Shown in pieces: positions 4,896-41,326 of a stretch of DNA of 64,000 nucleotides (position 1 is the first letter of the stretch; every line of letters begins with the position of its first letter). Below the pieces are notes generated by a model, which saw only the letters and a list, made by a program, of their open reading frames with translations, had not been told where the DNA came from and did no database searches. A program made the translations under genes and the position numbers. Source of the stretch: Lutibacter oceani (GTDB lineage Bacteria > Bacteroidota > Bacteroidia > Flavobacteriales > Flavobacteriaceae); the NCBI RefSeq assembly GCF_003384935.1, contig NZ_QTTQ01000011.1, positions 248,001 through 312,000 of the forward strand, read 5' to 3'.

Positions 4896-4912
4896 CTATT
4901 TAAATTACTTTT

Positions 4913-6874: not shown

Positions 6875-6940
6875 CAAAAGTACAACAAAACACTTAAAAC
6901 AGCATAATATTTTGCCGTTTTATGCATTTTTATGATTTTT
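6875..6940. promoter_or_regulatory. nagB promoter with putative DeoR-family operator
   Basis: On the minus strand a -7 box TACTTTTG (6882-6875) serves nagB. Just upstream is an inverted repeat GCATAA (6902-6907) / TTATGC (6920-6925), placed where the -33 box would lie. It runs into TTTTATGCATTTTTATG at 6918-6934, a 17-base string found again at 7888-7904 before susC. The T4-5ATG unit recurs with about a 10-base period, so the repeats face the same side of the helix. The binder is inferred to be the adjacent DeoR protein. Confidence 0.6.
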
Positions 6941-7118: not shown

Positions 7119-7868
7119 ATGCTTAAAGAAGAAAGACAAAACCACATACTTGATAAAATCAAATTAAACAGAAAGGTTTTATCATCTGACCTAAGCATCG
7201 AACTAAATGTTTCTGAAGATACTATCAGAAGAGATCTTAATGATTTATCATCAAAAAAACTAATTAAAAAAGTTCATGGAGGCGCACTACCAATAGATAC
7301 AAAAGCTCCATCCTATGAAGAAAGAAAATTCTATAGTTTAAAAGAAAAAAACAGCATTGCTAAAAAAGCCGTTAACCTAATTAAGGATGGACAAGTTATT
7401 ATAATGAGTGGTAGCACTACTAATTTACAGTTAGCAAAAATTATTCCTTCAGATGTAAATGCAACCATTTACACGTATAGCCTTCCTATTGCACTTCAAT
7501 TAACAGAACACCCATCAATTGAAATAATTTTTATTGGAGGCAAACTAAATAAACCTGCTCAAGTAACTGTTGGACTTGATGTTGTTTCTTCAATTTCTCA
7601 ATTAAGAGCAGACTTATGCTTTATGGGAACAGGAGGAATTAATGTATTAAATGGAATGACAGAACCCAACTGGGAAGTTTCTCATATTAAAAAATGTATG
7701 ATTGAAGCTAGTAATAAGGTTATTGTATTATGCACTAACAATAAAATTAATGAAATTAAAAGGTACTCTGTTACACCATTAAATCAAATTAATACCATTA
7801 TTACAGACCTTGATCCTAACAATCAAATATTTATTCCCTACAAAGAAAAAGGAGTTGAAATTCTTTAA
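7119..7868 (+). CDS. DeoR/GlpR-family sugar-phosphate-responsive regulator
   Basis: A 249-residue protein with the classic DeoR layout. The N-terminal helix-turn-helix is MLKEERQNHILDKI followed by LNVSEDTIRRDLNDLSSKKLI and KKVHGGALP (residues 1-58). The C-terminal DeoR sugar-phosphate isomerase-like domain begins near residue 75 (KNSIAKKAVNLIKDGQVIIMSGSTT) and includes GGKLNKPAQVTVG and FMGTGGINVLNGMTEPNW. Relatives such as AgaR respond to phosphorylated amino sugars. It lies between nagB (divergent) and susCD (same strand), with matching repeats in both gaps. It therefore probably represses both and is released by an amino-sugar phosphate. Its own -7 box TAAATTTG is at 7051-7058. Confidence 0.9.
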   Translation: MLKEERQNHILDKIKLNRKVLSSDLSIELNVSEDTIRRDLNDLSSKKLIKKVHGGALPIDTKAPSYEERKFYSLKEKNSIAKKAVNLIKDGQVIIMSGSTTNLQLAKIIPSDVNATIYTYSLPIALQLTEHPSIEIIFIGGKLNKPAQVTVGLDVVSSISQLRADLCFMGTGGINVLNGMTEPNWEVSHIKKCMIEASNKVIVLCTNNKINEIKRYSVTPLNQINTIITDLDPNNQIFIPYKEKGVEIL

Positions 7869-7887
7869 ACAACTCAAATAAAAATAT

Positions 7888-7976
7888 TTTTATGCATTTT
7901 TATGCGTTTTTAAATGTTAAATTTTGCATTTTTTTAACAATTTATTAACGAAGTATAAAAATAAATACTACTTTTG
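7888..7976 (+). promoter_or_regulatory. susC promoter region with putative DeoR operator
   Basis: Three tandem units of roughly TTTTTATGCN with a 10-base period start at 7887; the third (TTTTTAAATG) is degenerate. The first 17 bases (7888-7904) are identical to the nagB/deoR site at 6918-6934. A consensus -7 box TACTTTTG follows at 7969-7976, 31 bases before the susC ATG at 8008. No clear TTTG -33 box is visible. Co-regulation with nagB is inferred from the shared repeat. Confidence 0.6.
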
Positions 7977-8007
7977 AGTTCTAAATTATTATTTTAAATC
8001 CATTTTT

Positions 8008-11001
8008 ATGAACAAAACAAATGAAAACCTCTCTTTTTTTAAGAGATTTCGATTTATGAGTAGTGTATTTGCACTTATGATGTTGGGGTTTACCCTTCAA
8101 GCGCAAACAACCACGTATACATTAAAAGGTAATGTAACAGATAATATTGGTGAACCCGCTCCTGGTGTTAGTGTACAAATAAAAAACACCAATATGGGGG
8201 AAATTTCTGATTTCGACGGTAATTATTTATTAACTGCTAACCTAAACGCAGGTAGCTACACACTTGTTTTTAGATCACTAGGATTAGTAACTAAAGAAAT
8301 ACAAATTTCTTTGGGGTCTGAATCTGAAGTAGTTAATAATGTTGTTATGAATTTAGATATTCTAGGTTTAGATGAAGTAGTTATTACTGGTGCAGGAGCA
8401 TTAACAGTAAAAAAACAATTAGGTAATACTATTTCTAGCATTAAAGGTTTAGCAATTACCGAATCAGCATCTGTAGATATTACTGGAGGTCTTTCTGGAA
8501 AGTTAGCAGGTATTCAAGTAACTCAGAATTCTGGAGATCCAGCAGGTGGTATTAGTGTTCGATTAAGAAGTGCTAGTACAGTAAATGGTAGCTCTGACCC
8601 GTTATATATTATTGATGGAGTAATTGTCAACAACAACTCTACTGATATTTTAGGAACAACAAGTGTTGTTCAAAATAGATTATCAGATATTAGCCCACAA
8701 GACATTGATAGAATTGAGGTAATTAAAGGTGCTGCAGCAGCAGCCATTTACGGATCTAGAGCAAGTAATGGTGTTGTTCAAATTTTTACTAAAAAAGGGC
8801 AATCTGGAGAACCTGTAATAACAGTTTCAAGTAGTGTAAATTTTAATTCTCTAAGAAAGAAACGCGATTTTAATCAGGTTCCTTTAGATTGGGGAGCAGA
8901 TGGCACTACAGTACCTGCAACAAGATATGACTACCAAGATATGGTGTTTCAAAACTCAACAGGAACAGATAACTACGTTTCTATGTCAGGTGGAAAAGAA
9001 AAAACAAATTACTTTGCTTCATTTTCATATTTACAAAATGATGGAATTCTTAAAAGTACCGATTATCAAAGGCAAGGTGGTAGAATAAGAATTAACCAAA
9101 CAATTAACGATTGGGCTTCTGCTTCTTTTGGTACATATTTCTCAACAAGCAAAAGTAATGACCAACCTAATGGAGGTTATGTTGCTGGTATTTTACCAAC
9201 AATACTATTTACAAATAACACAATAGATCCTAGTGCTGATGCAGATGGTAATTATCCAAATATGACTTTTTATCCTAATATTTTGGAATACATTGAAACT
9301 TTTGATTTTACTCAAGAGAACAATAGAACTATTAGTGATTTTCAGCTTAGTTTAAAACCTACTGATGGACTTAAAGTAAATTATATTCTTGGTTATGATA
9401 ATTCTGAATCTATTGGTAATTCATATATACCAATTGGAACTAATACTATTGCATTAGGTAGTGCAAAAACAAATACTATAAGCACAAAACAATTAAATAG
9501 TGATTTGAATGCTTCTTTTGATAAGGATCTAAATGATAACATAAAATCTACAACAACAACTGGATTTTCTTGGCAATCAGATAAAACATTATTACGTTCT
9601 ATTTCAGCAACTGGATTGGCATTAGGAGTAAAAACTACAGATGGAGCTGCCTCAATTTCTACTGACGAAAGTAGAAGTGAAAGAACATTCTGGGGAGGTT
9701 TTCTACAACAAACATTTGGTTTTAATGATAAACTTTTTGTTACTGGAGCAATCAGACTGGATGGATCTTCAGTATTTGGTAAAGATGAAAGAAATCAATT
9801 TTACCCTAAAGCAAGTATGTCTTATTTAGTTTCCGAAGAAAATTTTTGGGAAAACAGCTTTGGAAGTTCAATTAATAGCTTTAAAATAAGAGCCGCTTGG
9901 GGTCAAGCCGGAAACTTAACAGCTATTGGACCTTTTGATAGATTATCAAATTATTCAGCTATAAGTATTGATGGAACTTCAGGTTTAATTGCACCTACAA
10001 GACTTGGAAATGCCGATTTAAAACCAGAAAGACAAACCGAGTTAGAATTTGGTATTGACTTGGGGTTATTTGATAACAAACTTGGTTTAGAACTTACTTA
10101 TTACAAACAAGACATTGAAGACCTTTTATTAGCAAGAACATTATCTCCTTCAACAGGTTTTGGTTCAAGAGTGGAAAACATTGGAACAATGACTAACAAA
10201 GGTTTTGAAGCATTAATTACAGCTACCCCTATTCAAACAACTGATTTTAGCTGGTCAATTACTGGTACTTACTCTTCAAACAAAAATGAAGTAAATGACA
10301 TTGAGGGTGAACAATTTGGAATTGGAAACTTTGGATTTTCAGTTGCAAAGAATGGACAACCCTTAGGAGTATTTTATCAAGGATATTATGCAAGAAATGC
10401 TGACGGAAGCTTACTTTTAACAGATGGAGGGCTACCTCAAAGAGAAAAAGGTTCTTATGATGCTAACGGAAATCCTGTTCCAGAAAGAGATGCATCGGGT
10501 CAACCTACTGGATCATCCCTAAGTAAAGTAATAGGAAATCCAAATCCTGATTTTATTGCTTCTTTAACAAATGAATTTAAATACAAGAACTTTTCTTTTA
10601 GAATGCAGTTTGACGCCGTGCAAGGTGTAGATGTTTTAAGTTGGGATACACGTATGTTCTATAGATTTGGAGGCGGACCAGCAACTGCAAGTGAATTAAG
10701 TGGAGAAAGTGTTAGAGGAACTGGAGCAGCTAAGTTTGGCATTGCAGAATCTTATATTGAAGATGGATCTTATATTAAACTTAGAGAGTTATCAACTTCC
10801 TATTTATTAAAAGATCCTTTGAAAGGAATTAATAGTGTTAAATTTTCTATAACTGGACGTAATTTATTTTCAATAGATAATTTCTCAGGCTATGACCCAG
10901 AAGTAAACATGGATGGGCAAAGTAATGGAGCTAGAGGAGGTATTATGGGGCTTGTTCCAATACCTAGCGTAATTAAATTTGGTGTAGTAGCTACTTTTTA
11001 A
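8008..11001 (+). CDS. SusC/RagA-family TonB-linked outer-membrane transporter
   Basis: A 997-residue protein. An N-terminal signal peptide ends near LGFTLQAQ (residue 33), followed by a carboxypeptidase-regulatory-like domain (LKGNVTDNIGEPAPGVSVQIKN) and a TonB plug (GLDEVVITGAGALTVKKQLG, GLSGKLAGIQVTQNSGDP, DPLYIIDGVIVNN, IEVIKGAAAAAIYGSRASNG). The beta barrel runs to the end (VIKFGVVATF). SusC proteins import oligosaccharides or peptides with the SusD lid protein, which follows 24 bases later. The downstream MurQ, AnmK, epimerase and NagZ genes suggest muropeptides or muramic-acid saccharides as cargo. That cargo assignment is inference. Confidence 0.95.
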   Translation: MNKTNENLSFFKRFRFMSSVFALMMLGFTLQAQTTTYTLKGNVTDNIGEPAPGVSVQIKNTNMGEISDFDGNYLLTANLNAGSYTLVFRSLGLVTKEIQISLGSESEVVNNVVMNLDILGLDEVVITGAGALTVKKQLGNTISSIKGLAITESASVDITGGLSGKLAGIQVTQNSGDPAGGISVRLRSASTVNGSSDPLYIIDGVIVNNNSTDILGTTSVVQNRLSDISPQDIDRIEVIKGAAAAAIYGSRASNGVVQIFTKKGQSGEPVITVSSSVNFNSLRKKRDFNQVPLDWGADGTTVPATRYDYQDMVFQNSTGTDNYVSMSGGKEKTNYFASFSYLQNDGILKSTDYQRQGGRIRINQTINDWASASFGTYFSTSKSNDQPNGGYVAGILPTILFTNNTIDPSADADGNYPNMTFYPNILEYIETFDFTQENNRTISDFQLSLKPTDGLKVNYILGYDNSESIGNSYIPIGTNTIALGSAKTNTISTKQLNSDLNASFDKDLNDNIKSTTTTGFSWQSDKTLLRSISATGLALGVKTTDGAASISTDESRSERTFWGGFLQQTFGFNDKLFVTGAIRLDGSSVFGKDERNQFYPKASMSYLVSEENFWENSFGSSINSFKIRAAWGQAGNLTAIGPFDRLSNYSAISIDGTSGLIAPTRLGNADLKPERQTELEFGIDLGLFDNKLGLELTYYKQDIEDLLLARTLSPSTGFGSRVENIGTMTNKGFEALITATPIQTTDFSWSITGTYSSNKNEVNDIEGEQFGIGNFGFSVAKNGQPLGVFYQGYYARNADGSLLLTDGGLPQREKGSYDANGNPVPERDASGQPTGSSLSKVIGNPNPDFIASLTNEFKYKNFSFRMQFDAVQGVDVLSWDTRMFYRFGGGPATASELSGESVRGTGAAKFGIAESYIEDGSYIKLRELSTSYLLKDPLKGINSVKFSITGRNLFSIDNFSGYDPEVNMDGQSNGARGGIMGLVPIPSVIKFGVVATF

Positions 11002-11025
11002 GTATTAAAATAAAAACATAATAAA

Positions 11026-12372
11026 ATGAAAAACATAAAAATATATACAATTATAAGTGTTTTGCTTATTAGCAGTGGTTTATTTACTGCGTGCGAAACT
11101 GACTTTGAAAATCTAAACAACCCTACTGAAGATGTTGTATTAGGTACAAAGGAAGGACTGTTTGCATTAGCAACAGGAATTAGACAGTACTATTCAGTTA
11201 TAGCATTAAGACAAGTAATTGAAGCACCAGGAATTACGACAAGAGAATTAGGGGTAACCAATACCTTTTTAAATATTAATGAATTAGCTAAAGGTGGAGC
11301 TGAATTACCTGGCGAAAGTGGAGGTATAACAAATCCTTGGGTAAATCTTATGAGAGCTAAAGGAATGGCTGAATCATTAATTGATGGAGCAAATTCAGTT
11401 GAACTTTCTGGAGGTACAAGAAGTGGCCTTTTAGCATATGGTAATTTATTTAAAGCAATGTGCTTGGGTTCTCTTATTCAAATGTTTGAACAAGCCCCAA
11501 TCAATAATTCTGCAGATGGAGCAGCTCAATTTAGTGACAGAACAACCGTATTAGCTAGTTGTATTAGTTTGTTAGAAGAAGCGAATGATGTATTAACTTC
11601 AACACCTATGTCAGATGAATTTAAATCTACTGTTTTATGGTCAGAAATGAACTTACAAAAAACAGTAAATGCATTTCTTTCAAGATATTACTTATTAGCA
11701 GGTAATTATACTGAGTCAATTAATGCTGCTAATGCTGTATTAAATAATAGTGACACAACAAATTCAATGTGGGTTTATGATGCAAACAACCAAAACCCTA
11801 TTTGGAATAGAACAGTAAATTCTGCCGACTTAAATCCTCAAACTAATTTTGGTTTACTAGGAGCATATGTTCCTGAAGCTGGTGATGGCCGTGTCGATTT
11901 CTATTTAGGAGCTGATGCAGGTTTTGCTAATTTAGATGCAGGTGGACAAGCCCTAAGTGAAATGCTTGGATTTTTTGGCACTAGCACATCTTCAATTCCA
12001 ATTTACCTTCATGGTGAAATGCTACTAAACAAAGCAGAAGCATACGCTAGACAAACTCAATTGAGTAATGCGGTTATACAGTTAAATTTGGTAAGGCAAA
12101 AAAATGATGATCCACTTAGTGTTAATGCTAACCTTCCTGCATGGACTGGAGATGAAACTAATCAAAATGATATTTTAGAAGAAATTTATAAAAATAGATG
12201 TATCGAACTATTTTTAACTGGAATGAGATTTGAAGATAGTAAAAGATTTCATCCTAATTTTGCTGTTCCTTCTGCTGCAAATACTACTAATGAAAGAAAT
12301 AGGAATTTTTATCCTTATCCAACAATAGAAAGGGAAAATAACCCAAATACTCCAGCAGACCCAAGTATTTAA
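11026..12372 (+). CDS. SusD/RagB-family outer-membrane lipoprotein
   Basis: A 448-residue protein with a lipoprotein signal (SSGLFTAC, Cys 23) and the SusD-typical NLNNPTEDV after it. Helical TPR-like regions include a GEMLLNKAEAYARQ segment near residue 335, and a C-terminal ILEEIYKNRCIELFLTGMRFEDSKRF motif is characteristic of the family. It caps the SusC barrel and binds the substrate at the cell surface. It shares an operon with susC; a hairpin at 12395-12435 separates the pair from the intracellular enzymes downstream. Confidence 0.94.
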   Translation: MKNIKIYTIISVLLISSGLFTACETDFENLNNPTEDVVLGTKEGLFALATGIRQYYSVIALRQVIEAPGITTRELGVTNTFLNINELAKGGAELPGESGGITNPWVNLMRAKGMAESLIDGANSVELSGGTRSGLLAYGNLFKAMCLGSLIQMFEQAPINNSADGAAQFSDRTTVLASCISLLEEANDVLTSTPMSDEFKSTVLWSEMNLQKTVNAFLSRYYLLAGNYTESINAANAVLNNSDTTNSMWVYDANNQNPIWNRTVNSADLNPQTNFGLLGAYVPEAGDGRVDFYLGADAGFANLDAGGQALSEMLGFFGTSTSSIPIYLHGEMLLNKAEAYARQTQLSNAVIQLNLVRQKNDDPLSVNANLPAWTGDETNQNDILEEIYKNRCIELFLTGMRFEDSKRFHPNFAVPSAANTTNERNRNFYPYPTIERENNPNTPADPSI

Positions 12373-12394
12373 TTGAATTTTGTTTTAATATGAT

Positions 12395-12435
12395 AATAAA
12401 CGGGGTTTCAAAGAAATTTGTCAACCTCGTTTATT
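12395..12435 (+). terminator. hairpin after susD
   Basis: Arms AATAAACGGGGTT (12395-12407) and AACCTCGTTTATT (12423-12435) pair over 13 positions with one G-U. The loop is 15 bases. Only a weak T-run follows, so it may be a partial terminator or an RNA-processing/stability element that sets susCD levels above the downstream genes. Confidence 0.5.
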
Positions 12436-12476
12436 CATATTAGTTAATTTTTTAAACTTAAGTACCTATAAGGTAT

Positions 12477-12518
12477 AAGTTTATTATTTTTAGTTTTTAA
12501 AATAAAAATAATAAACTT
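12477..12518. repeat. perfect 15-base inverted repeat before the symporter gene
   Basis: AAGTTTATTATTTTT (12477-12491) and AAAAATAATAAACTT (12504-12518) are exact complements separated by 12 bases. The element ends 24 bases before the ATG at 12543. It could be an RNA hairpin in the 5' leader or a protein-binding site. It is A/T only apart from one G/C pair per arm, so a hairpin would be weak for its length. Confidence 0.55.
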
Positions 12519-12542
12519 AAAATTCCTATCTAAAATAAATTT

Positions 12543-14000
12543 ATGAGCCCAATACTAATTTTAATTATCATTACTTCCTACTTTGGACTATTAATGCTAA
12601 TCTCTCATATTACTTCAAAAAACTCAAGTGACGCTTCTTTCTATACAGGTGACAGAAAATCTCCTTGGCAAGTTGTTGCTTTTGGAATGATTGGAGCTGT
12701 AATGTCTGGAGTTACATTTGTATCTATACCTGGAATGGTTGGTACCAATTATTTTTATTATTTACAATTTGTCTTTGGAAATGTAGTGGGTTATGTTTTT
12801 ATAACATATGTGCTTTTGCCAATTTACTACGATTTAAAACTAATTTCTATCTATACCTATCTTGAAACTAGGTTTGGCACTAAAACATATAAAACCGGAT
12901 CGTTGTTTTTTTTAATATCACAATCATTCGGAGCTGCACTTCGTTTACTGCTTGCTGCAAAAATTTTACAATTCGCAGTATTTGATGCATTCAACATTCC
13001 ATTTTATGTTACTGTAATTATAATATTAATTCTTATTTGGTTTTACACGCATAAATCTGGAATTAAAACCATTGTGTGGACAGATACGCTACAAACATTT
13101 TTTTTACTTTTAGCAGCTATTGTTTCTATATATGTTGTAAAAAGTTCTTTAAATTTAGATTTTACTGAAACCATTACTGCTGTTACCAACCATAAATATT
13201 TTAAAGTTTTTGATTGGGATTTTAATTCTGGAAGCAATTTTTATAAACAATTTATTTCAGGATTTTTAATTGCTGTTGCTATGATCGGATTGGATCAAAA
13301 TATGATGCAAAAAACCCTTACTTGTAAAAATAAAAAAGAAGCTAAAAATAACATTTTAACTTTCAGTTTAATTTTAGCTGTAACTCAATTTCTTTTTTTA
13401 GGATTAGGTGTGATGCTTTATTTATATGCTGAAAAATTTGGCATTCAACTAGAAACTTTAAATGGAAAGTTTATTAATACAGATGACTTATTTCCAATGC
13501 TATCTCTTAATCATTTTGGAATTATTGCAAGTGTTAGCTTTATTTTGGGAATAACTGCTGCCTCATTTTCAAGTGTAGACTCATCATTAACGGCCTTAAC
13601 TACATCATTTACACATGACTTTTTAGACATTCAACATAAAAATTCAAAAGAAAAAAAACGATTAAAAAACTTGGTATTATTAGGTTTTTCAATGGTTATT
13701 TTTACAATTATTATGTTATTTTCTGAAAGTAAAGGAAATGTAATTTCAACCATTTTTAAAGTAGCAGGCTATACTTATGGTCCTCTATTAGGACTCTATT
13801 TATTTGGCATTTTTACAAAAATAAAAATAAAAGACACAGCTGTACCATTTATTTGTGTTCTTACACCATTACTTACTTACTATTTAAACCATCTATTCTT
13901 AACAAAATTCTCTTTTGATTTAGGTTTTATGAATATATTAGTAAATGCACTTTTAACCATTGTATGTTTAATTATTGTAACCAAAAAAAATGAAAAATAA
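12543..14000 (+). CDS. sodium:solute symporter family transporter (probable muramic-acid sugar importer)
   Basis: A 485-residue protein with about 13 hydrophobic helices in the SSS layout: SDASFYTGDRKSPWQVVAFG near residue 30, MSGVTFVSIPGMV near 55, and FILGITAASFSSVDSSLTALTTSF near 335, the Na2-site Ser region. SSS members import sugars, amino acids or sialic acid with Na+. The 3' end overlaps murQ by 11 bases, so the cargo is probably the sugar that AnmK and MurQ act on, meaning MurNAc or anhydro-MurNAc. Tannerella forsythia has a comparable MurNAc transporter-kinase-MurQ cluster. Substrate is inferred from context. Confidence 0.85.
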   Translation: MSPILILIIITSYFGLLMLISHITSKNSSDASFYTGDRKSPWQVVAFGMIGAVMSGVTFVSIPGMVGTNYFYYLQFVFGNVVGYVFITYVLLPIYYDLKLISIYTYLETRFGTKTYKTGSLFFLISQSFGAALRLLLAAKILQFAVFDAFNIPFYVTVIIILILIWFYTHKSGIKTIVWTDTLQTFFLLLAAIVSIYVVKSSLNLDFTETITAVTNHKYFKVFDWDFNSGSNFYKQFISGFLIAVAMIGLDQNMMQKTLTCKNKKEAKNNILTFSLILAVTQFLFLGLGVMLYLYAEKFGIQLETLNGKFINTDDLFPMLSLNHFGIIASVSFILGITAASFSSVDSSLTALTTSFTHDFLDIQHKNSKEKKRLKNLVLLGFSMVIFTIIMLFSESKGNVISTIFKVAGYTYGPLLGLYLFGIFTKIKIKDTAVPFICVLTPLLTYYLNHLFLTKFSFDLGFMNILVNALLTIVCLIIVTKKNEK

Positions 14001-14802
14001 ACCAACAACAGAACAAGCTTCAAATTACAATAACTTAGAAAAAATGAGTACTACAGAATTACTCAAAAATATAAATAATGAAGATAAAACAGTTCCAAAT
14101 GCCATAGAAAAAGTAATTCCTTCCATAGAAAAACTAGTAAATAGTATACACACTAAAATGAAAAATGGAGGAAGATTATTTTATATTGGAGCAGGAACAA
14201 GCGGAAGATTAGGTGTTTTAGACGCTTCTGAATGCCCTCCAACATACGGTGTTTCAGATAATTGGGTAATAGGATTAATTGCAGGTGGTGATTCTGCCCT
14301 TAGAAAGGCTGTAGAAAATGCTGAAGATGATACCACGTTAGCTTGGAAAGATTTACAAAACTATCATATTTCAGATAAAGATGTATTAGTTGGCATTGCT
14401 GCCTCGGGAACAACTCCATACGTTATTGGAGGTCTTAAAAAAGCTAAAGAGAATAATATTGTTACCGGGTGCATTGTTTGTAATAAAAATAGCCCTGTTG
14501 CAGAAGTAGCAGATTTTCCTATTGAAATTGTGGTTGGTCCTGAATTTGTTACTGGAAGTACTCGAATGAAAGCCGGTACCGCACAAAAGTTAGTCTTAAA
14601 TATGATTTCTACCTCAGTAATGATTAAACTTGGTAGAGTGAAGGATAATAAAATGGTTCATATGCAATTATCAAATACAAAATTAGTGAATCGTGGTATT
14701 CTTATGTTAATGGATGAACTTCATATCAATCAAGAATTAGCTACCTCACTACTTGAAGAGCACAAAAATGTTAAAAATGTATTAGACATCTATCAAAAGT
14801 AA
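13990..14802 (+). CDS. murQ: N-acetylmuramic acid 6-phosphate etherase
   Basis: A 270-residue SIS-domain enzyme. The start region has TEQASNYNNLEKMSTTELL, typical of MurQ. The active-site block is FYIGAGTSGRLGVLDASECPP near residue 65, with GDSALRKAVENAEDD after it; these carry the two conserved glutamates. MurQ cleaves the lactyl ether of MurNAc-6-P to give GlcNAc-6-P and D-lactate in the cytoplasm. It is slightly short compared with the roughly 300-residue E. coli enzyme, with the C-terminal end trimmed. It overlaps the transporter upstream and precedes anmK by 12 bases. Confidence 0.95.
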   Translation: MKNKPTTEQASNYNNLEKMSTTELLKNINNEDKTVPNAIEKVIPSIEKLVNSIHTKMKNGGRLFYIGAGTSGRLGVLDASECPPTYGVSDNWVIGLIAGGDSALRKAVENAEDDTTLAWKDLQNYHISDKDVLVGIAASGTTPYVIGGLKKAKENNIVTGCIVCNKNSPVAEVADFPIEIVVGPEFVTGSTRMKAGTAQKLVLNMISTSVMIKLGRVKDNKMVHMQLSNTKLVNRGILMLMDELHINQELATSLLEEHKNVKNVLDIYQK

Positions 14803-14814
14803 ACTTATAAAATT

Positions 14815-15882
14815 ATGAGAAATCTTACAAAACATTGCATTGGTGTTATGAGTGGCACTTCTTTAGACGGCATTGATATTGCTTACATAAAACTTAATTT
14901 TGATACTAATTATCAATTTGAGATACTTAAAGCCACTACAATTCCTTACCAAAAAGAATGGAAAATAGCTTTAAAAAATGGTTTTCATTTAACAGGAGAA
15001 GCTTTAACAAAGCTTGATGCTAATTATGGTATTTATCTTGGCAACACTCTAAAAGAATTTATTAAAAGTAACCAAATTGAACATTTAGATTTCATAGCCT
15101 CTCACGGTCACACTATTTATCATAATCCAAAAGAAAACTACACGCTACAAATTGGAAATGGTCCATATATTAATACAATTACTGGAATAAAAACCATTTG
15201 TAATTTTAGAGTACAAGATGTTGCTTTGGGCGGTCAAGGTGCTCCCCTAGTTCCAATTGGAGATATGCTTTTATTTTCTGAATATGATTATTGCTTAAAC
15301 TTAGGTGGTTTTTCAAATATCTCAATGAATGATGAGAACAAACAACGTATTGCTTTTGATATTTGCCCTGCAAATATTGTTTTAAACCATTATGTAAATT
15401 TATTAAACCTTGAATATGATGATAATGGTGAAATTGCTTCAAAAGGGAATATTGAATCGGATTTACTAAACGAATTAAATTCTTTGCCTTTTTATAACGA
15501 TTCTAAACCAAAATCATTGGGTTATGAATTTATAGTAGAAACCATATTTCCAATAATTGATAAGTATAAACTTGAAATTACAGATATATTAAGAACTTTT
15601 GTTGAACATATAGCCATCCAAATTGCAAAAAAAACGGACTCAAATCCCAGAAAAAAAATGCTTATTGCTGGTGGAGGTGCCTACAATGGTTTTCTTATTG
15701 AAAGATTACAGTCTCTTACAAAAACTCAATTAATAATACCTGATGATAGTATTATTAATTATAAAGAAGCTTTAGTTTTTGCTTTATTAGGTTATTTAAA
15801 AAATGAAGGAAAAAATAACTGCCTAAAAAGCGTTACAGGAGCAAGCATAGACCATAGTAGTGGAATTATATATACTTCTTAA
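14815..15882 (+). CDS. anmK: anhydro-N-acetylmuramic acid kinase
   Basis: A 355-residue protein with the AnmK N-terminal signature IGVMSGTSLDGIDIAYIKL. It also has the catalytic/ATP regions DFIASHGHTIYHNP, RVQDVALGGQGAPLVPIGD and LNLGGFSNIS, and a C-terminal IAGGGAYNGFLIERL. AnmK opens and phosphorylates 1,6-anhydro-MurNAc to MurNAc-6-P, the substrate of MurQ encoded 12 bases upstream. 1,6-anhydro sugars come from lytic transglycosylases, so the locus can handle wall-turnover products and not just free MurNAc. Confidence 0.95.
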   Translation: MRNLTKHCIGVMSGTSLDGIDIAYIKLNFDTNYQFEILKATTIPYQKEWKIALKNGFHLTGEALTKLDANYGIYLGNTLKEFIKSNQIEHLDFIASHGHTIYHNPKENYTLQIGNGPYINTITGIKTICNFRVQDVALGGQGAPLVPIGDMLLFSEYDYCLNLGGFSNISMNDENKQRIAFDICPANIVLNHYVNLLNLEYDDNGEIASKGNIESDLLNELNSLPFYNDSKPKSLGYEFIVETIFPIIDKYKLEITDILRTFVEHIAIQIAKKTDSNPRKKMLIAGGGAYNGFLIERLQSLTKTQLIIPDDSIINYKEALVFALLGYLKNEGKNNCLKSVTGASIDHSSGIIYTS

Positions 15883-15893
15883 AAACATATTTT

Positions 15894-18809
15894 ATGTCTA
15901 CCAAAACATTAGACCTAAACAAACTAAATAATTTATTGTCAGGAGAGCTTTTTTTTGACAATTTGCATAAAAGTATTTACGCAACTGATGCATCAGTATA
16001 TAGAAAAATTCCATTAGGGGTTGCATATCCAAAAAACAATAATGATATCAAAACTCTTATCAATTTTGCAACAGAAAACAACATCACTTTAATCCCTCGA
16101 GCGGCTGGAACTTCATTAGCAGGCCAATGTGTTGGAGATGGTTTGGTTGTAGATACATCAAAACATTTCACAAATATTTTAGCTTTTGATGAGCATACTA
16201 AAAAAATAACTATTCAACCTGGAGTTATTAGAGATGAATTAAACGATTTCTTAAAACCCTATGGATTATTTTTTGGTCCAAATACCTCTACAAGTAATCG
16301 TTGTATGATTGGTGGAATGGTTGGTAACAATTCATCTGGAACAACTTCCATAAAATATGGTGTTACAAGAGATAAAGTACTTGAATTAAAAACAATTTTA
16401 AGCGATGGTTCTGAAGTCGTTTTTAATGAATTAACCACCCAACAATTTAATCAAAAAAAGATTGGAAATTCTTTAGAAAGTAAAATATATAAGACTGTTT
16501 TTAATGAATTATCCAATGAAGAAACACAACAAGAAATTGTAAGTCAATTTCCTAAAAAAAATATCCACCGAAGAAATAATGGTTATCCTATTGATGAGTT
16601 ATTAAACTACGAAGGTTTTGGAGGTCAAAATGAATCCATAAATTTAGCAACTTTATTAACAGGAAGCGAAGGTACTTTAGCTTTTACTACAGAAATAACT
16701 TTAAAATTAGACTCACTTCCTCCTTCTAAAAACATTATGATTGCTGCTCATTTTAACAGCATTCAAGAAAGTATGGAGGCTGTTGTAGTTGCAATGAAAC
16801 ATAATTTATTTACGTGTGAATTAATGGATAAAACCATTTTAGATTGCACTAAAAATAACAGAGAGCAGTTAAAAAACAGGTTTTTTGTTGAAGGCAATCC
16901 TAAAGCTATATTAATGCTTGAAATTTGCACAAATTCTAATGACGAATCTAACAAATTAGCTGATGCTTTAATAAATGATTTACAATCAAAAAAATTGGGA
17001 TATGCATTTCCAAAATTAGTAAATAACAATATTGACAAAGCTGTAAACTTACGAAAAGCTGGTTTAGGTTTGTTAGGTAATATTGTTGGAGACAATAAAG
17101 CCGTGGCTTGTATTGAAGATACGGCTGTAACAGTAAAAGACCTGCCAAATTACATTGCAGAATTCACTAAAATGATGGAAGATTTCGGACAAGAAGCTGT
17201 GTATTACGCACATGCTGGTGCTGGTGAATTACATTTACGTCCAATACTTAATTTAAAAAAGAAAGAAGATGTTGCTTTATTTAGAGAAATAACTTCTAAA
17301 ACAGCTAAATTAGTTAAAAAATATGGTGGTTCTTTTAGCGGAGAGCACGGCGATGGAATTGTAAGAGCTGAATTTATTCCTCAAATGATTGGAGCAAAAA
17401 ATTATGAACTTTTAAAACGCATAAAACAAACTTTTGACCCAAATTCAATTTTTAACAAAGGAAAAATTATAGATCCATTTCCTATGGATGAAAGTTTGCG
17501 TTATGAAATTGACCGAGAAGAGCCACAGATTGAAACCATACAAGATTTTTCAGATAGTTTAGGAATTCTAAGAGCTACCGAAAAGTGTAACGGTTCAGGC
17601 GATTGCAGAAAACTCCCTGAAGCTGGCGGAACTATGTGCCCAAGTTACAGAGCAACCAGAAATGAAAAAGATACAACACGTGCAAGAGCAAACGCCCTAC
17701 GCGAATTTTTAACAAATTCAGAAAAGCAAAATAAATTCAATCACAAAGAATTATACGATGTTTTCGATTTATGCTTAAGTTGTAAAGCATGTGCCAGTGA
17801 ATGCCCTAGTAATGTTGATGTTGCTGCCTTAAAAGCAGAATTTCTATATCAATATTACAAGGAAAATGGCATTCCGTTTAGAACTCAACTATTTGCCAAT
17901 AATGTAAAATGGAATAAATTAGGAAGCCTTACTCCTACTTTTACAAATTTAGTATTAAACACAAAACTCACTAAAAAATTAATGGGAATTGCCACCAAAA
18001 GAAGCATTCCTAAATTAGCCAAAAAAACTGTTTATAGTTGGTATAAAAGAAATAAAAAAAGACTGCTTAATCAGCCTGTAAAACATGGCGAATTGTTTCT
18101 ATTTGTTGATGAGTTTACAAACTATTATGATGCAAACATTGGTATTGATACTATTGAATTATTGACCCAATTAGGCTACAAAATAAACATTACACAACAC
18201 GAAGAAAGTGGAAGAAGTTTTATTTCAAAAGGAATTTTAGACAAAGCCAAAGAAAAGGCCGATTTTAATGTAAACTTTTTTAAGACAAAAATAACCAATA
18301 CAAAGCCTCTGGTTGGAATAGAACCCTCAGCAATTTTAACATTTAGAGATGAATATTTAAGATTGGCTGATGATAAAGAAGCTGCCAAAGAAATTTCAAA
18401 AAATACTTTTACTATTGAAGAGTTTATAAAACAGGAATTTGATAAAAACAATATCACTTCTGAATGCTTTACTACCAAATCAGCAATATTAAAAATTCAT
18501 GGTCATTGTCAACAAAAATCATTGAGTAGCACGGAACCTACTTTTAAGATGTTATCAATTCCAAAAAATTATAGTGTAACTATTATTAATTCAGGTTGCT
18601 GTGGTATGGCAGGTTCTTTTGGTTATGAAAAAGAGCATTATCAAATTAGTATGCAAGTTGGTGAAGATACCTTATTTCCAAAAATTAGAAATACTGAAAT
18701 TGACACTATTATTGCAGCTCCTGGCACTAGTTGTAGGCATCAAATAAAGGATGGAACTACCAGAGAATCTAAACATCCCGTATCAATTTTAAGAGACGCA
18801 TTGCTGTAA
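15894..18809 (+). CDS. FAD-binding / 4Fe-4S D-lactate dehydrogenase-type oxidoreductase
   Basis: A 971-residue fusion of an FAD-linked oxidase (residues about 1-490) with a GlpC-like iron-sulfur part. FAD motifs: PRAAGTSLAGQCVGDGLVV, GGMVGNNSSGTTSIKYG, LTGSEGTLAFTTEI and SGEHGDGIVRAEF. Iron-sulfur motifs: CNGSGDC with a distal Cys-Pro near 564-580, and CLSCKACASECP near 627. A CCG-type motif (CCGMAGSFGYE) lies near 900. Such proteins oxidise D-lactate or glycolate and pass electrons to quinone. MurQ releases D-lactate, so its place 11 bases after anmK makes D-lactate the likely substrate (inference). Glycolate or D-2-hydroxyglutarate oxidation cannot be excluded by sequence alone. Confidence 0.88.
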   Translation: MSTKTLDLNKLNNLLSGELFFDNLHKSIYATDASVYRKIPLGVAYPKNNNDIKTLINFATENNITLIPRAAGTSLAGQCVGDGLVVDTSKHFTNILAFDEHTKKITIQPGVIRDELNDFLKPYGLFFGPNTSTSNRCMIGGMVGNNSSGTTSIKYGVTRDKVLELKTILSDGSEVVFNELTTQQFNQKKIGNSLESKIYKTVFNELSNEETQQEIVSQFPKKNIHRRNNGYPIDELLNYEGFGGQNESINLATLLTGSEGTLAFTTEITLKLDSLPPSKNIMIAAHFNSIQESMEAVVVAMKHNLFTCELMDKTILDCTKNNREQLKNRFFVEGNPKAILMLEICTNSNDESNKLADALINDLQSKKLGYAFPKLVNNNIDKAVNLRKAGLGLLGNIVGDNKAVACIEDTAVTVKDLPNYIAEFTKMMEDFGQEAVYYAHAGAGELHLRPILNLKKKEDVALFREITSKTAKLVKKYGGSFSGEHGDGIVRAEFIPQMIGAKNYELLKRIKQTFDPNSIFNKGKIIDPFPMDESLRYEIDREEPQIETIQDFSDSLGILRATEKCNGSGDCRKLPEAGGTMCPSYRATRNEKDTTRARANALREFLTNSEKQNKFNHKELYDVFDLCLSCKACASECPSNVDVAALKAEFLYQYYKENGIPFRTQLFANNVKWNKLGSLTPTFTNLVLNTKLTKKLMGIATKRSIPKLAKKTVYSWYKRNKKRLLNQPVKHGELFLFVDEFTNYYDANIGIDTIELLTQLGYKINITQHEESGRSFISKGILDKAKEKADFNVNFFKTKITNTKPLVGIEPSAILTFRDEYLRLADDKEAAKEISKNTFTIEEFIKQEFDKNNITSECFTTKSAILKIHGHCQQKSLSSTEPTFKMLSIPKNYSVTIINSGCCGMAGSFGYEKEHYQISMQVGEDTLFPKIRNTEIDTIIAAPGTSCRHQIKDGTTRESKHPVSILRDALL

Positions 18810-18810
18810 A

Positions 18811-19824
18811 ATGAAGCTAATTATACGAACCTATAAATTACAATTAAAGCATCCTTTTACAATTTCAAGAGGTACTAGAACTGAAATTCCTTCAATAATA
18901 GTGGAACTTCAAGAAAATGAATTTTCAGGATTTGGAGAAGCAACCGCAAACCCATATTACAACACCTTTGTTGAGCAATTTGAAGAAGAACTTCTTGAAA
19001 AACGAGTGATTATTGAAAACATTTCAGATAAAACACCAAAAGAATACTGGGATTATTTATATCCGTATTTTAAGAATAATATGTTTTTATTATGCGCTTT
19101 AGATGAAGCTTACACGGATTTATACACACGTAAAAAAGGAATTAAATTGTATCAATATTGGGATTTAAAACCTAAAAATATTCCTCAAACAAATTTTACA
19201 ATTGGAATTGACACCATAGAAAATATGGTTTCAAAAATGACAGAAACATCATGGCCAATTTATAAAATTAAGTTGGGAACAAAAGATGATATTCAAATAG
19301 TTACTGAACTAAGAAAACATTCAAATTCCATTTTTAGAATTGATGCAAATTGTGGTTGGGATGTTACTGAAACAGTCAAAAACTCTGTTGAATTAAAAAA
19401 ATTAGGCGTTGAATTTATTGAACAACCGCTACCAGCAGATAACTGGAGAGGAGCAAAAGTAGTGTTCGACAATACTTTCTTACCTATAATTGCTGATGAA
19501 AGCTGTATTATTGAAAGTGATATTGAAAAATGTTACAATCATTTTCACGGAGTAAACATCAAATTAATGAAATGTGGCGGTTTAACTCCTGCTAAAAGAA
19601 TGATTACAAAAGCTAAATCTTTAGGTTTAAAAACCATGGTGGGCTGTATGACAGAATCTTCTGTTGGTATTTCAGCAATTGCACATTTAACGCCACTTTT
19701 AGATTATGTAGATATGGACGGTGCTTTATTGTTAAAAAATGATGTAGCAACAGGTGTAAAATTAGTAAATGGCAACATTTTATTTTCAGAATTAAACGGA
19801 ACTGGAGCACAAATAAAAGAATAA
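18811..19824 (+). CDS. dipeptide epimerase (L-Ala-D/L-Glu epimerase type)
   Basis: A 337-residue enolase-superfamily enzyme of the muconate-lactonising group. The capping domain includes HPFTISRGTRTEIPSIIVEL. The barrel carries the KxK pair (IYKIKLG), metal ligands in FRIDANCGW, IEQPLP and IADES, and the second catalytic lysine in VNIKLMKCGG. These fit L-Ala-D/L-Glu epimerases, which convert the murein dipeptide L-Ala-D-Glu to L-Ala-L-Glu so that it can be cleaved and used. It begins one base after the preceding stop, in the same operon as murQ and anmK. Confidence 0.92.
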   Translation: MKLIIRTYKLQLKHPFTISRGTRTEIPSIIVELQENEFSGFGEATANPYYNTFVEQFEEELLEKRVIIENISDKTPKEYWDYLYPYFKNNMFLLCALDEAYTDLYTRKKGIKLYQYWDLKPKNIPQTNFTIGIDTIENMVSKMTETSWPIYKIKLGTKDDIQIVTELRKHSNSIFRIDANCGWDVTETVKNSVELKKLGVEFIEQPLPADNWRGAKVVFDNTFLPIIADESCIIESDIEKCYNHFHGVNIKLMKCGGLTPAKRMITKAKSLGLKTMVGCMTESSVGISAIAHLTPLLDYVDMDGALLLKNDVATGVKLVNGNILFSELNGTGAQIKE

Positions 19825-19838
19825 AAAAATATTAAAAA

Positions 19839-22775
19839 ATGAAAAAAATACTAATAGCAAGCATCTTCTTATTTCTTGGAACTAGTAGCTATGCGCAACA
19901 AATTGATCCATTACTAACTTCTGATGTTGAAGATCAAGAAAAATGGGTTGAAAATATTATGAATAAGCTAAGTTTAGATGAAAAAATAGGCCAGCTTTTT
20001 ATGATTCAAGCCTATTCAAATAAAGACAAAAAACATACAGCCTATGTAAAAAAAATGATTAAGAAATATCATATTGGTGGGTTGATTTTTATGCAGGGAA
20101 CTCCAGAAAAACAAGCTGAATTAACAAATACATATCAAGCAACTTCTAAAATTCCTTTATTAATTGGTTTTGATGGGGAATGGGGCTTAAATATGCGTTT
20201 AAAAAATTCGTTTCGTTATCCTTGGAATATGACTTTAGGTGCTGTTCAAAATAATAAACTAATTGAGCAATTTGGAGAACGATTAGGAGAACATTGTAAA
20301 AGAATTGGAATCCATGTTAATTTTGCTCCAGTAGTTGACATTAATACAAATCCTGAAAACCCAATTATTGGTAATCGTTCATTTGGCGAAAATAAATACA
20401 ATGTTACCGAAAAAGCAATTGCTTTTACAAATGGAATGCAAAGTACTGGAGTGCTTGCAAATGCGAAACATTTTCCGGGACATGGAGATACTTCTACAGA
20501 TTCTCATAAAACACTTCCTTTTCTTGATTTTACTTTAGAACGATTAGATTCTATTGAATTGTTTCCTTATAAAGAATTGTTTAAAATCAATTTGGCAAGT
20601 GTTATGGTGGCGCATTTAAATGTGCCTTCATTAGAACCTAAACCTGGAGTTCCAACTTCTATTTCTTATAAAGTTATTACAGAACTTTTAAAAGAAAAAA
20701 TGGGATATAATGGACTCATTTTTACAGATGCATTAAATATGAAAGGTGCTGCCAATTATGCAAAGCCCGGAGATATTGATTTGGCAGCTTTTTTAGCTGG
20801 TAACGATATGTTATTAATTCCTGAGGATGTAAAAGCTGCTGTGAAAAAATTAAAGTCAGCTCTTAAAAAAAATCTTTTTACAGAAGAAAAACTTAACCAA
20901 TCTGTAATAAAGATTTTAAAAGCTAAATACTGGGTAGGCTTGAATAATTTTACACCAATAAATGAAGAAAGCATACAAGAAGATATTATTACCATTAAAG
21001 ACAAATTATTATACCGCTCTTTAATGAAAGAAGCTACAACGCTTGTTCAAAATAAGGAAGCTATAGTACCAATTAAAGAATTATCAAATACTAAAATAGC
21101 CTATGTTAAATTGGGAGATTCTGATAATTTTGCCTTTACAAATACCTTAAAAAAGTATACACAAGTTGATATTATTTCTGAAGAAAATTTAACTGTATTA
21201 TTGCAAAAATTAGAACCTTATTCAACTGTTATTATTGGTTATCATAAATCTAATGAAACTCCTTGGAAAAGTTTTAAAATGACTGAAGAAGAGCTTATTT
21301 GGTTAGAAGAAATTTCTAAAAACAACAACGTAATTTTAGATGTTTTTGCCAGTCCGTATGCTTTATTAAACATCCCAGATTTCAAAAATATAAATGCAAT
21401 TTTAGTTTCGTATCAAAACAGTAAAGTGTCTCAGGAAATTTCGGCACAGATGATTTTTGGAGCAATAGAGATAAAAGGAAAATTGCCAGTTTCAATAAAT
21501 CAAGTTTTTCCTGAAGGAACAGGAATAACTACTTCAAATTTAATGAGATTATCCTATACGATTCCTGAAGAAGTAGATATGGACAGCAAATTACTCTCTA
21601 AAATTGATTCTTTAACAACTATGGTTGTAGATTCAACAATGGCACCCGGAGGGCAAGTATTGGTTGCTCGTTACGGAAAAGTAGTTTATCATAAAAGTTT
21701 TGGATACCAAACCTATGACAAAAAACAACAAGTAAAATTAACCGACATCTACGATTTGGCTTCAGTAACAAAAATTTTAGGAGGTCTTCCAATGATTATG
21801 AAAAGTGAAGAAATGGGTTTATTTAATTTAGAAACTACTCTTGGTGAATTGTTGCCATATTTAAAAGGCTCCAATAAAGATACGATTACTATGAAAGAAG
21901 CTTTATCTCATGTAGGTAAAATAAAACCTTGGATTCCTTATTATTTAGAAACAGTTGATAGTATTTCAAAAGTACCTTTTAGCAACTTATATAGTACAAC
22001 TAAAAGTGATAATTTCTCCATTAAAGTTGCTGAAAATTTATTTTTAATTAATTCTTATACCGACTCTATTTACAAGAAAATAGCTGAAGCTCCTCAAAGA
22101 AAAACTGAAGGCTATAAATATAGCGGACTTATCTTTTACCTATTTAAAAAGTATATTAAAGATACTTTCCATAAAGAAATGGATGAGCTTAACAATGAAA
22201 ATTTCTATTTGCCTTTAGGTTCAAAATCATTAGGTTACAATCCATTAAAAAAAATTAGTCCAACTGAAATAGCTCCAACTGAAATTGATGATTATTACCG
22301 ACATCAAACATTAAGAGGTAACGTTCATGACATGGGAGCCGCAATGATGAATGGTGTTAGCGGAAACGCAGGGTTATTTTCTAACTCTAATGATGTTGCT
22401 AAAATGATGCAAATGTATTTACAAAAAGGGTTTTATGGTGGTAAAAGATATTTTGAAAGTAAAACAATTGATAAATTTAACCAGCGGTATTATGAAAATG
22501 ACAGCATAAGAAGAGGCCTTGGTTTTGATAAACCTAGCCTAGATCCAGAAATTAAAGCAAGTAGTAAATATGCTTCTGCCAATAGCTTTGGACATAGTGG
22601 TTTTACAGGAACCTTTACATGGGCTGACCCAGATAATGGCATTTTATATGTATTCTTATCAAACAGGGTATATCCAACTATGAGTAATAATAAACTTGGA
22701 GAAAAAGATATGCGATCTGAAATTCATAACCTTATTTACAAAGCTATCCAAAAAACAAATGCTTACTTTAATTAA
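19839..22775 (+). CDS. exported NagZ-type beta-N-acetylglucosaminidase fused to a beta-lactamase-like serine hydrolase
   Basis: A 978-residue protein with a signal peptide (ILIASIFLFLGTSSYAQ). The GH3 NagZ domain runs to about 370, with the signature NAKHFPGHGDTSTDSHKTLP near 209 carrying the His/Asp dyad. A GH3 C-terminal sandwich follows. A class-C beta-lactamase/DD-peptidase-like domain runs from about 590 to the end, with the nucleophile SxxK as SVTK near 641 and a GHSG motif near 916. The middle Tyr motif reads YSG rather than YSN/YAN. NagZ removes GlcNAc from muropeptides; the fused domain may cut a peptide or ester bond. The fusion is known in Bacteroidota. It is probably periplasmic, acting before import by the symporter. 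It is the last gene of the locus. Confidence 0.9.
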   Translation: MKKILIASIFLFLGTSSYAQQIDPLLTSDVEDQEKWVENIMNKLSLDEKIGQLFMIQAYSNKDKKHTAYVKKMIKKYHIGGLIFMQGTPEKQAELTNTYQATSKIPLLIGFDGEWGLNMRLKNSFRYPWNMTLGAVQNNKLIEQFGERLGEHCKRIGIHVNFAPVVDINTNPENPIIGNRSFGENKYNVTEKAIAFTNGMQSTGVLANAKHFPGHGDTSTDSHKTLPFLDFTLERLDSIELFPYKELFKINLASVMVAHLNVPSLEPKPGVPTSISYKVITELLKEKMGYNGLIFTDALNMKGAANYAKPGDIDLAAFLAGNDMLLIPEDVKAAVKKLKSALKKNLFTEEKLNQSVIKILKAKYWVGLNNFTPINEESIQEDIITIKDKLLYRSLMKEATTLVQNKEAIVPIKELSNTKIAYVKLGDSDNFAFTNTLKKYTQVDIISEENLTVLLQKLEPYSTVIIGYHKSNETPWKSFKMTEEELIWLEEISKNNNVILDVFASPYALLNIPDFKNINAILVSYQNSKVSQEISAQMIFGAIEIKGKLPVSINQVFPEGTGITTSNLMRLSYTIPEEVDMDSKLLSKIDSLTTMVVDSTMAPGGQVLVARYGKVVYHKSFGYQTYDKKQQVKLTDIYDLASVTKILGGLPMIMKSEEMGLFNLETTLGELLPYLKGSNKDTITMKEALSHVGKIKPWIPYYLETVDSISKVPFSNLYSTTKSDNFSIKVAENLFLINSYTDSIYKKIAEAPQRKTEGYKYSGLIFYLFKKYIKDTFHKEMDELNNENFYLPLGSKSLGYNPLKKISPTEIAPTEIDDYYRHQTLRGNVHDMGAAMMNGVSGNAGLFSNSNDVAKMMQMYLQKGFYGGKRYFESKTIDKFNQRYYENDSIRRGLGFDKPSLDPEIKASSKYASANSFGHSGFTGTFTWADPDNGILYVFLSNRVYPTMSNNKLGEKDMRSEIHNLIYKAIQKTNAYFN

Positions 22776-22846: not shown

Positions 22847-22920
22847 TTGATGAGTTGAAAGACTTATCAATCTTTTTCATAGCAATTTTCCTCACTCATT
22901 TTTGAGTGAGGTTTCTTTTT
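22847..22920 (+). ncRNA. candidate small RNA with own promoter and terminator
   Basis: In the gap after the nagZ gene lies a consensus -7 box TATATTTG (22836-22843). A 9-base-pair hairpin follows, TTGATGAGT (22847-22855) with ACTTATCAA (22862-22870). About 20 unpaired bases separate it from a strong terminator CCTCACTCA/TGAGTGAGG (22890-22911) with a T-rich tail. The expected transcript is about 70 bases. No -33 TTTG is seen and no coding frame fits. It could instead be a 3' element of the upstream operon. Confidence 0.5.
22890..22920 (+). terminator. rho-independent terminator
   Basis: A 9-base-pair G+C-rich stem (22890-22898 and 22903-22911) with a 4-base T loop, followed by TTTCTTTTTTT. 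It ends either the candidate small RNA or the whole muramic-acid operon. Confidence 0.88.
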
Positions 22921-38335: not shown

Positions 38336-38350
38336 TTTGTTTTATATTAA

Positions 38351-38470: not shown

Positions 38471-38474
38471 AAAA

Positions 38475-40345: not shown

Positions 40346-40349
40346 ATTC

Positions 40350-41135: not shown

Positions 41136-41148
41136 TCTCTATGCTTAT

Positions 41149-41222: not shown

Positions 41223-41283
41223 ACTTTATTAGTTTTTATTGATTCTAAAATCTCAATCTATCTAACAACTACTATTATCTTGC

Positions 41284-41310: not shown

Positions 41311-41326
41311 TTTTGACGATTTATTC

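Follow-up and report, generated by a model that had tools for sequence, protein, structure and literature searches.

Polysaccharide utilisation loci (PULs) are usually seen as serving plant, algal or host glycans, and a locus of Lutibacter oceani in which a SusC–SusD (SusCD) importer stands among genes for muramic-acid sugars raises the question of whether the bacterial cell wall can be the cargo of such a system. The locus lies in a 64,000-nucleotide stretch (the window; contig NZ_QTTQ01000011.1, positions 248,001 to 312,000) of a 3.38 Mb genome assembly. It is quite probably a peptidoglycan-fragment utilisation locus with its own SusCD importer, a reading carried above all by the recurrence of peptidoglycan-sugar genes beside relatives of its SusD. 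We infer every substrate, every localisation (export leaders were read by eye) and the direction of regulation from the sequence. The genes of the locus are as follows.

4913..6850, minus strand: NagB-PIG-L fusion gene (PF01182 + PF02585)
7119..7868, plus strand: DeoR/GlpR-family regulator gene (PF00455, PF08220)
8008..11001, plus strand: SusC-type TonB-dependent outer-membrane transporter gene (TIGR04056)
11026..12372, plus strand: SusD-type surface lipoprotein gene (PF07980)
12543..14000, plus strand: sodium:solute symporter (SSS) gene (PF00474)
13990..14802, plus strand: MurQ, N-acetylmuramic acid (MurNAc) 6-phosphate etherase gene (TIGR00274)
14815..15882, plus strand: AnmK, anhydro-MurNAc kinase gene (PF03702; NF007144)
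15894..18809, plus strand: FAD and 4Fe-4S 2-hydroxyacid dehydrogenase gene (PF02913, PF01565, PF13534)
18811..19824, plus strand: dipeptide-epimerase-family gene (PF13378/PF02746)
19839..22775, plus strand: exported GH3 (NagZ)–beta-lactamase-fold fusion gene (PF00933 + PF00144; leader read by eye)

Open reading frame (ORF) calling and two profile libraries recovered every gene named in the preliminary description at these positions on the plus strand, together with the short gaps it had noted after 12543 (−11, 12, 11, 1 and 14 bp from the symporter gene onward). Upstream, the gaps measure 139 bp between the DeoR and SusC genes, 24 bp between SusC and SusD, and 170 bp between SusD and the symporter. 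That description was right in its gene list, which lacked the divergent NagB-PIG-L gene at 4913–6850, and the gene at 7119–7868 is that of a DeoR-family regulator. The NagB-PIG-L gene probably belongs to the locus; among the relatives surveyed below it is also placed before DeoR in L065, L068, L092, L097 and on the cut contig of L066, and not in L069. Both marks by which a PUL is recognised are present, namely an adjacent susC–susD pair (SusC, TIGR04056 at 573 bits over a cut-off of 368; SusD, PF07980 at 44 bits over 23) and at least one linked carbohydrate-active enzyme, here the GH3 domain (PF00933) of the protein encoded at 19839–22775. The SusD carries a lipobox, FTAC, read from the sequence, whose C23 is invariant in 64 of 64 sequences of an alignment (A3) that joins 63 of the 75 SusDs of the tree described below to that of the window.

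Uptake of wall-derived muramic sugars by this SusCD pair had been proposed from the window, along with a gene-order survey in Flavobacteriaceae, and a survey run on SusD relatives supports the proposal. Five aligned SusD orthologues were the query for a scan of named genomes, and the best 79 of 408 confirmed relatives were taken as loci; MurQ, AnmK, epimerase, NagZ, AmiE-like and NamZ genes served as core markers, counted at 30% identity, half of the reference covered and 100 bits. Core genes were found near SusD in 38 of the 79 loci. Excluding the 21 whose two flanks add up to less than 10 kb leaves 58 loci, 34 of them with core genes; where each flank measures 8 kb or more, the count is 22 of 34. 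By SusD identity (n = 58), the markers were present in 15/20 loci at 70% or above, 0/1 at 60–70%, 10/14 at 45–60% and 9/23 below 45%, a fall as would be expected if one clade had specialised and remote relatives less so. Control SusD neighbourhoods, 40 in number from 13 family genomes with the own genome included (8/40), held a core marker in a single case (an epimerase, L157). One-sided Fisher tests against these controls gave 1.1e-9 for 34/58 and 4.2e-9 for 15/20, values that are too favourable, since they treat related loci as independent. Chance adjacency of SusCD and wall-sugar genes was tested by the same comparison and rejected.

SusCD-type importers may also carry other substrates, RagAB being one for peptides. 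An unrelated cargo of this kind in the window, with the adjacency incidental, would accord with the 24 of 58 flanked relatives that have no core marker, because of which part of this SusD superfamily may indeed carry other cargo, and with the weak similarity of the window SusD to solved SusDs (best E 1e-4), so that structural comparison gives no hint of the cargo. It is nevertheless very improbable here, given the difference in marker frequency between relatives and controls and the motif that the regulator and susC share in their upstream regions (see below).

On the peptidoglycan reading, a complete route can be proposed. SusD would capture soluble wall fragments, most likely N-acetylglucosamine (GlcNAc)-anhydroMurNAc or GlcNAc-MurNAc, bare or with peptide attached, and their import through SusC would draw on TonB energy. 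In the periplasm, the fusion protein would strip off GlcNAc and the stem peptide. Its earlier description as a NagZ fusion holds in so far as a GH3 domain (PF00933, 266 bits over a cut-off of 27) is followed by a C-terminal serine beta-lactamase-fold domain (PF00144, 109 over 27), with YbbD/NagZ (3bmx, E 3e-63) as the best solved relative of the GH3 part, but the NagZ-type NCBIfam model NF003740 fell short (162 bits for a cut-off of 207). The motifs KHFPGHGDTxTDSH, TDAxNMKG, SxTK and HxGFTG, to which we assign presumed catalytic roles, are fully conserved in all 9 aligned fusions; for the beta-lactamase part, which bears the SxTK and HxG motifs, the best NCBIfam model was PBP4B, below cut-off. 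The fusion is predicted to be a periplasmic glucosaminidase and muramoyl-L-alanine amidase (AmiE-like).

The SSS protein (PF00474, 88 bits over 23) would then carry (anhydro)MurNAc into the cytoplasm. Its best solved relative is 5nv9 (E 4e-30), annotated as a putative sodium:solute symporter and known as a sialic-acid SSS transporter; the muramic substrate is predicted from the gene company. AnmK (NF007144, 499 bits over 436), a kinase that handles the anhydro form of MurNAc, would form MurNAc-6-phosphate, which the etherase MurQ (TIGR00274, 335 bits over 302) would split into GlcNAc-6-phosphate and D-lactate. Outside the locus, one BadF-family candidate kinase is present at G000:C4:320519 of the own genome, and two AnmK-like pieces with internal stops (38–41%; G000:C4:361360-361971, L194 and L195) are apparently a decayed second AnmK.

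The gene company likewise leads us to predict that the dehydrogenase oxidises the D-lactate released by MurQ. The flavoprotein had been called D-lactate-type, and an FAD/Fe-S dehydrogenase is present as described; its best model is in fact the D-2-hydroxyglutarate dehydrogenase YdiJ, at 608 bits for a cut-off of 1350, and its solved relatives are glycolate oxidase (9qgz), LctD (7qh2) and a probable D-lactate dehydrogenase (8jdc). Similarly, the proposed L-Ala-D/L-Glu epimerase can be placed in the dipeptide-epimerase group of the enolase superfamily (best solved relative 3iji, E 2e-59, followed by the L-Ala-D/L-Glu epimerase 1jpd) but lies below the cut-off of every NCBIfam model listed. From its neighbours it is predicted to turn L-Ala-D-Glu into L-Ala-L-Glu, which would ready the dipeptide for a peptidase.

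The fate of GlcNAc-6-phosphate would rest with NagB-PIG-L (NF002557, 1048 bits over 384; TIGR00502, 258 over 237). Searches of the own genome with TIGR00221 gave no full-length NagA and only partial matches of at most 33 bits, and on this ground the PIG-L domain is proposed as the deacetylase. The pattern suggests that it does the job of NagA (GlcNAc-6-phosphate deacetylase), such that one protein would perhaps convert GlcNAc-6-phosphate to fructose-6-phosphate; no report of this activity for a PIG-L domain was present among the literature matches listed. The own genome has two NagB-PIG-L genes. Across 60 family genomes, NagB-PIG-L was above cut-off in 30, 24 of them without NagA, while NagA (E up to 1e-30) was detected in six and exceeded its cut-off in two; all six also carried NagB-PIG-L, and five a short stand-alone NagB. 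The remaining genomes had neither at the thresholds used, save a sub-threshold fragment in G041.

Because NagB-PIG-L suits any GlcNAc route, the importer might instead be one for GlcNAc, chito-oligosaccharides or mucin-type glycans, with NagB-PIG-L, DeoR and the GH3 domain serving GlcNAc and the muramic genes as passengers. RmNag3 of Rhodothermus marinus, of the same GH3–beta-lactamase architecture as the fusion, acts on acetyl-chito-oligosaccharides according to the part of the report available (PMC6987092). We consider this alternative quite unlikely, since no chitinase family was detected among the ten locus proteins scanned and since the genes that recur beside this SusCD clade are MurQ, AnmK and NamZ. 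These three enzymes act on muramic sugars.

Given that the catabolic enzymes of the locus are standard turnover enzymes, that AnmK is specialised in 1,6-anhydro sugars from lytic transglycosylases and that no depolymerase was seen among the scanned locus proteins, the locus might also serve to recover the organism's own turnover fragments, SusCD retrieving only those leaked through the outer membrane. Turnover fragments of Gram-negatives are normally kept in the periplasm, however, and an outer-membrane importer would therefore be superfluous for recycling alone. A second MurQ gene of the own genome, at G000:C2:713517, adjoins the gene for monomeric isocitrate dehydrogenase (icd; PF03971, TIGR00178), a linkage seen also in four other family genomes (L051, L061, L062 and L064; the dehydrogenase was profiled in L063 and L061 only). 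The window MurQ was accordingly rejected as the ordinary recycling copy and is taken as an extra, catabolic paralogue. MurQ occurs in 114 of 120 family genomes, compared with 6 of 120, own genome included, for relatives of the window SusD, of which the G074 match is weak. Strong relatives are present in G014, G057, G116 and G119, a count that is not independent of the survey, as G119:C48, G057:C329 and G116:C19 seem to coincide with L083, L095 and L105. With MurQ so widespread and the SusD so rare, the locus looks like an accessory added to ordinary recycling, and self-recycling as its sole function is unlikely.

A MurQ tree of 35 rows, 34 of them different (L054 and L095 are identical) and with 7 of 31 inner branches starred, places the window copy in a 19-row clade with support 80. 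The icd-linked and catabolic copies are separated by a single change with five 'other' rows omitted; over all three groups the catabolic label changes three times and the icd label twice (shuffled means 8.9 and 4.8).

Candidate regulatory signals in and just after the locus are as follows.

6913..6932, plus strand: predicted DeoR operator, tandem TGCNNTTTTA, perfect match, in the NagB/DeoR gap
7893..7912, plus strand: second predicted DeoR operator, upstream of susC, perfect match, in the DeoR/susC gap
12396..12434, plus strand: hairpin found by folding in the susD–symporter gap (12373–12542)
22890..22911, plus strand: terminator-like hairpin with T tract, a 9-pair stem followed by TTTCTTTTTT

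DeoR bound to the tandem TGCNNTTTTA repeats would repress the divergent units for as long as no sugar phosphate is present. With up to two mismatches allowed, the pattern TGCNNTTTTATGCNNTTTTA has two matches in the 64 kb, both perfect (6913 and 7893), for an expected mean of 0.67 (about 0.0009 for perfect matches; order-1 model), expectations that are optimistic because the pattern was derived from these same gaps. Fairer evidence is the recurrence of the motif at 0–2 mismatches: L066, L068, L092 and L097 have it in both gaps, L065 and L069 in the DeoR–susC gap, and L069 also on the minus strand upstream of DeoR. L097 retains both sites though its SusCD is of a 49–51% type. In L099 and L075, whose DeoR is divergent (39–41%), no motif within two mismatches was found in the corresponding gap.

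The whole 170-bp susD–symporter gap folds at −43.2 kcal/mol (z −6.2), and a strong stem-loop also follows susD in L097, whose SusCD is of another type. Among seven aligned sequences a two-sided change was seen at one of 16 stem pairs, and most broken pairs belong to L068 and L097; this weak covariation limits the claim to a conserved stem in close relatives. The hairpin is possibly an attenuator or an mRNA-processing stem and perhaps sets SusCD above the downstream genes. The hairpin at 22890..22911 is the probable operon end, for which its position argues rather than the count of terminator-like sites in the region (9, compared with 6.7 in shuffles). Scans for the Bacteroidetes-type promoter TTTG-N17-23-TANNTTTG gave 7 matches for 9.8 expected, none upstream of the operon, and a sigma-70 scan was at background (70 compared with 82.8).

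The surroundings of SusD relatives bear on how the importer and the catabolic genes came together. In a tree of 75 of the 79 SusD ORFs (L102, L113, L133 and L141 did not pass filtering on completeness and length), the linkage state must switch at least 10 times for any core marker (57 rows: 56 loci and the window), 10 times for MurQ, 9 for AnmK, 8 for NamZ and 4 for the epimerase. A single inherited cluster was thereby rejected, and the association of SusCD with catabolic genes seems to have arisen repeatedly. Catabolic genes of relatives are joined to three unlike SusCD types. In L096 and L100, relatives of the window symporter, MurQ, AnmK and dehydrogenase (74–85%) stand beside a SusCD just 44–49% identical, and in the family genomes L050, L057 and L058, SusD-like_2 (PF12771) importers lie near symporter, MurQ, NagZ and NamZ genes, the MurQs falling in the clade of the window copy (support 80).

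The inner-membrane route varies as well. In L124 (Fulvivirga) and L126 (a Flammeovirgaceae metagenome-assembled genome, MAG), the SusC and SusD genes are followed by those for a GHL10 hydrolase, a permease resembling AmpG, a leaderless NagZ and AnmK, and MurQ and DeoR run divergently from NagB-PIG-L and this SusCD set. As NagZ, whether exported in the window or leaderless in L124 and L126, would act after SusC in both layouts, the imported cargo would probably still have its GlcNAc–MurNAc bond.

NamZ (PF07075/PF20732) follows susD in L049, L052, L067 and L080, stands between the susD and symporter genes in the Lutibacter loci L065, L067 and L069, and is not found there in the window, L066, L068 or L092; in the own genome a single NamZ was found, at C4:61126. 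It is the sole core marker found beside SusCD in Aureibaculum (L080, L082, L083) and Flagellimonas/Muricauda (L076, L079, L081). By eye, the NamZ proteins of L065:11944-13131, L067:4428-5615, L069:11458-12642 and L049:7748-8932 have no export leader, unlike the lipoprotein-like NamZ of L050:5185-6399; if cytoplasmic exo-muramidases, the leaderless proteins would require disaccharide import across the inner membrane. A 122-aa ORF in L065 (11540-11908), 79% similar to the symporter, separates susD from NamZ, which would fit an insertion of NamZ or a duplication of the symporter start.

A bolder reading, held with moderate confidence, is a distinct SusCD clade dedicated to peptidoglycan fragments in several Bacteroidota families, repeatedly recombined with NamZ and with different inner-membrane routes (SSS with exported NagZ-AmiE-like fusion, or AmpG-like permease with leaderless NagZ). 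Three dissimilar importers would serve the weakly supported catabolic MurQ clade, namely the window type, one just 48–53% identical in SusD and the SusD-like_2 type, and the bacterial wall would then be a regular, not an exceptional, PUL substrate in the phylum.

Several observations weigh against these readings. No surface endo-acting depolymerase, a common though not universal PUL trait, was found among the ten locus proteins scanned with profiles, which suits a system that takes up ready-made fragments and does not itself attack sacculi. The importer is rare, with strong relatives of the window SusD in 4 of 119 other family genomes and none in the one other same-genus genome sampled; among matches listed, the best named ones, at 87–90% identity, come from five Lutibacter records and from a Flavobacteriaceae MAG that is not classified further. 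The 24 flanked SusD relatives without core markers include 5 of the 20 at 70% identity or above (Gelidibacter L071–L073, L084 and L086), and also L089, which has a sulfatase nearby. The controls were hand-picked from listings of strong PF07980/PF14322 matches and are neither random nor divergence-matched. The SusD tree was a quick one that left 15 of its 73 inner forks open and drew long-branch warnings, and short flanks may inflate its change counts. Close relatives vary, in that L068 is without the dehydrogenase, L097 without the symporter and L069 without NagB-PIG-L before DeoR. Two of these loci belong to named Lutibacter strains, L069 to L. litoralis JCM 13034 and L068 to L. citreus 1KV19. 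Finally, AmpG is the best NCBIfam family for the L124/L126 permease at a score below its cut-off, and the window dehydrogenase has the FAD/Fe-S architecture with no curated model over cut-off.

Some neighbouring features were recorded separately. Near the Gelidibacter SusCD of L071 (81–83% in L071–L073) are a Mur-ligase-family gene (MurC and Mpl models) and a PBP4B-like gene, both below cut-off; L072 and L073 look like L071 in the layout comparison, the profiling having covered L071 only. In the window, a gene for a CreD inner-membrane protein (PF06123, 1168–2535) lies a few kb upstream of the locus, and a tmRNA gene (4505–4898, plus strand; RF00023, 162 bits) lies between an AlaDH-like gene and NagB-PIG-L. 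Ordinary tryptophan biosynthesis genes occupy 37574–44493 on the minus strand (trpA, a PALP enzyme, IGPS, a Glycos_transf_3 protein and an anthranilate-synthase-type protein).

Parts of this arrangement are familiar from other bacteria. The Bacillus subtilis operon has the order murQ-murR-murP-amiE-nagZ-namZ, with AmiE of the beta-lactamase family. Its MurQ and its catabolic logic are akin to the window locus. So are its NagZ and AmiE, both mentioned as exported in the available text (PMC6987092). That organism is Gram-positive and imports by a phosphotransferase system, whereas the window joins NagZ and an amidase-like domain in one protein with uptake predicted via SusCD and SSS. RmNag3 shares the signal peptide and the order GH3, second domain and beta-lactamase domain; in the portions seen, it is called the only characterised enzyme of GH3–beta-lactamase architecture, peptidoglycan turnover is suggested, and SusCD is mentioned only for a xylan locus, unlike the window fusion beside SusCD (PMC6987092). 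Tannerella forsythia shares Bacteroidota MurNAc salvage by an inner-membrane transporter and MurQ (MurT-MurK-MurQ and AmpG, Tanf_08345-08385), and needs MurNAc because it is without MurA/MurB; SusCD is not mentioned for its cluster in the excerpts available (PMC7670621, PMC10465942). It uses MurK, with no AnmK ortholog predicted in the excerpt (PMC7670621), in contrast to the window with its AnmK and SusCD. NanOU of T. forsythia and Bacteroides fragilis is, in the accessible part of its report, a SusCD for one acidic amino sugar in a sialic-acid operon (PMC3969230); the window catabolic genes point to muramic sugars instead. PULs in general share SusC, SusD, a glycoside hydrolase and a regulator with the locus, judging from extracts of two surveys (PMC6499787, PMC6298971). 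In the extract of the 13,537-PUL survey, GH23/24/25/73 are under-represented in PULs yet present in several (PMC6499787), and the word 'peptidoglycan' occurs 0 times in the main text, as searched, of the study on 400 Flavobacteriia PULs (PMC6298971). A SusCD for MurNAc or muropeptides was not described among the open-access literature matches listed, a search that left subscription papers and supplements outside.

The walls of dead cells form a large store of carbon and nitrogen. In marine bacteria, the available part of one study reports peptidoglycan-degradation genes to be commoner in free-living than in particle-attached cells, read as rapid solubilisation and recycling (PMC10877868). If the proposal is true, the window provides a SusD for a direct muropeptide-binding test, and its SusCD clade would supply the missing outer-membrane step ahead of MurT/AmpG-type salvage. 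The wall-fragment SusCD clade would then mark necromass feeding at the sequence level, and its members could be counted in metagenomes.

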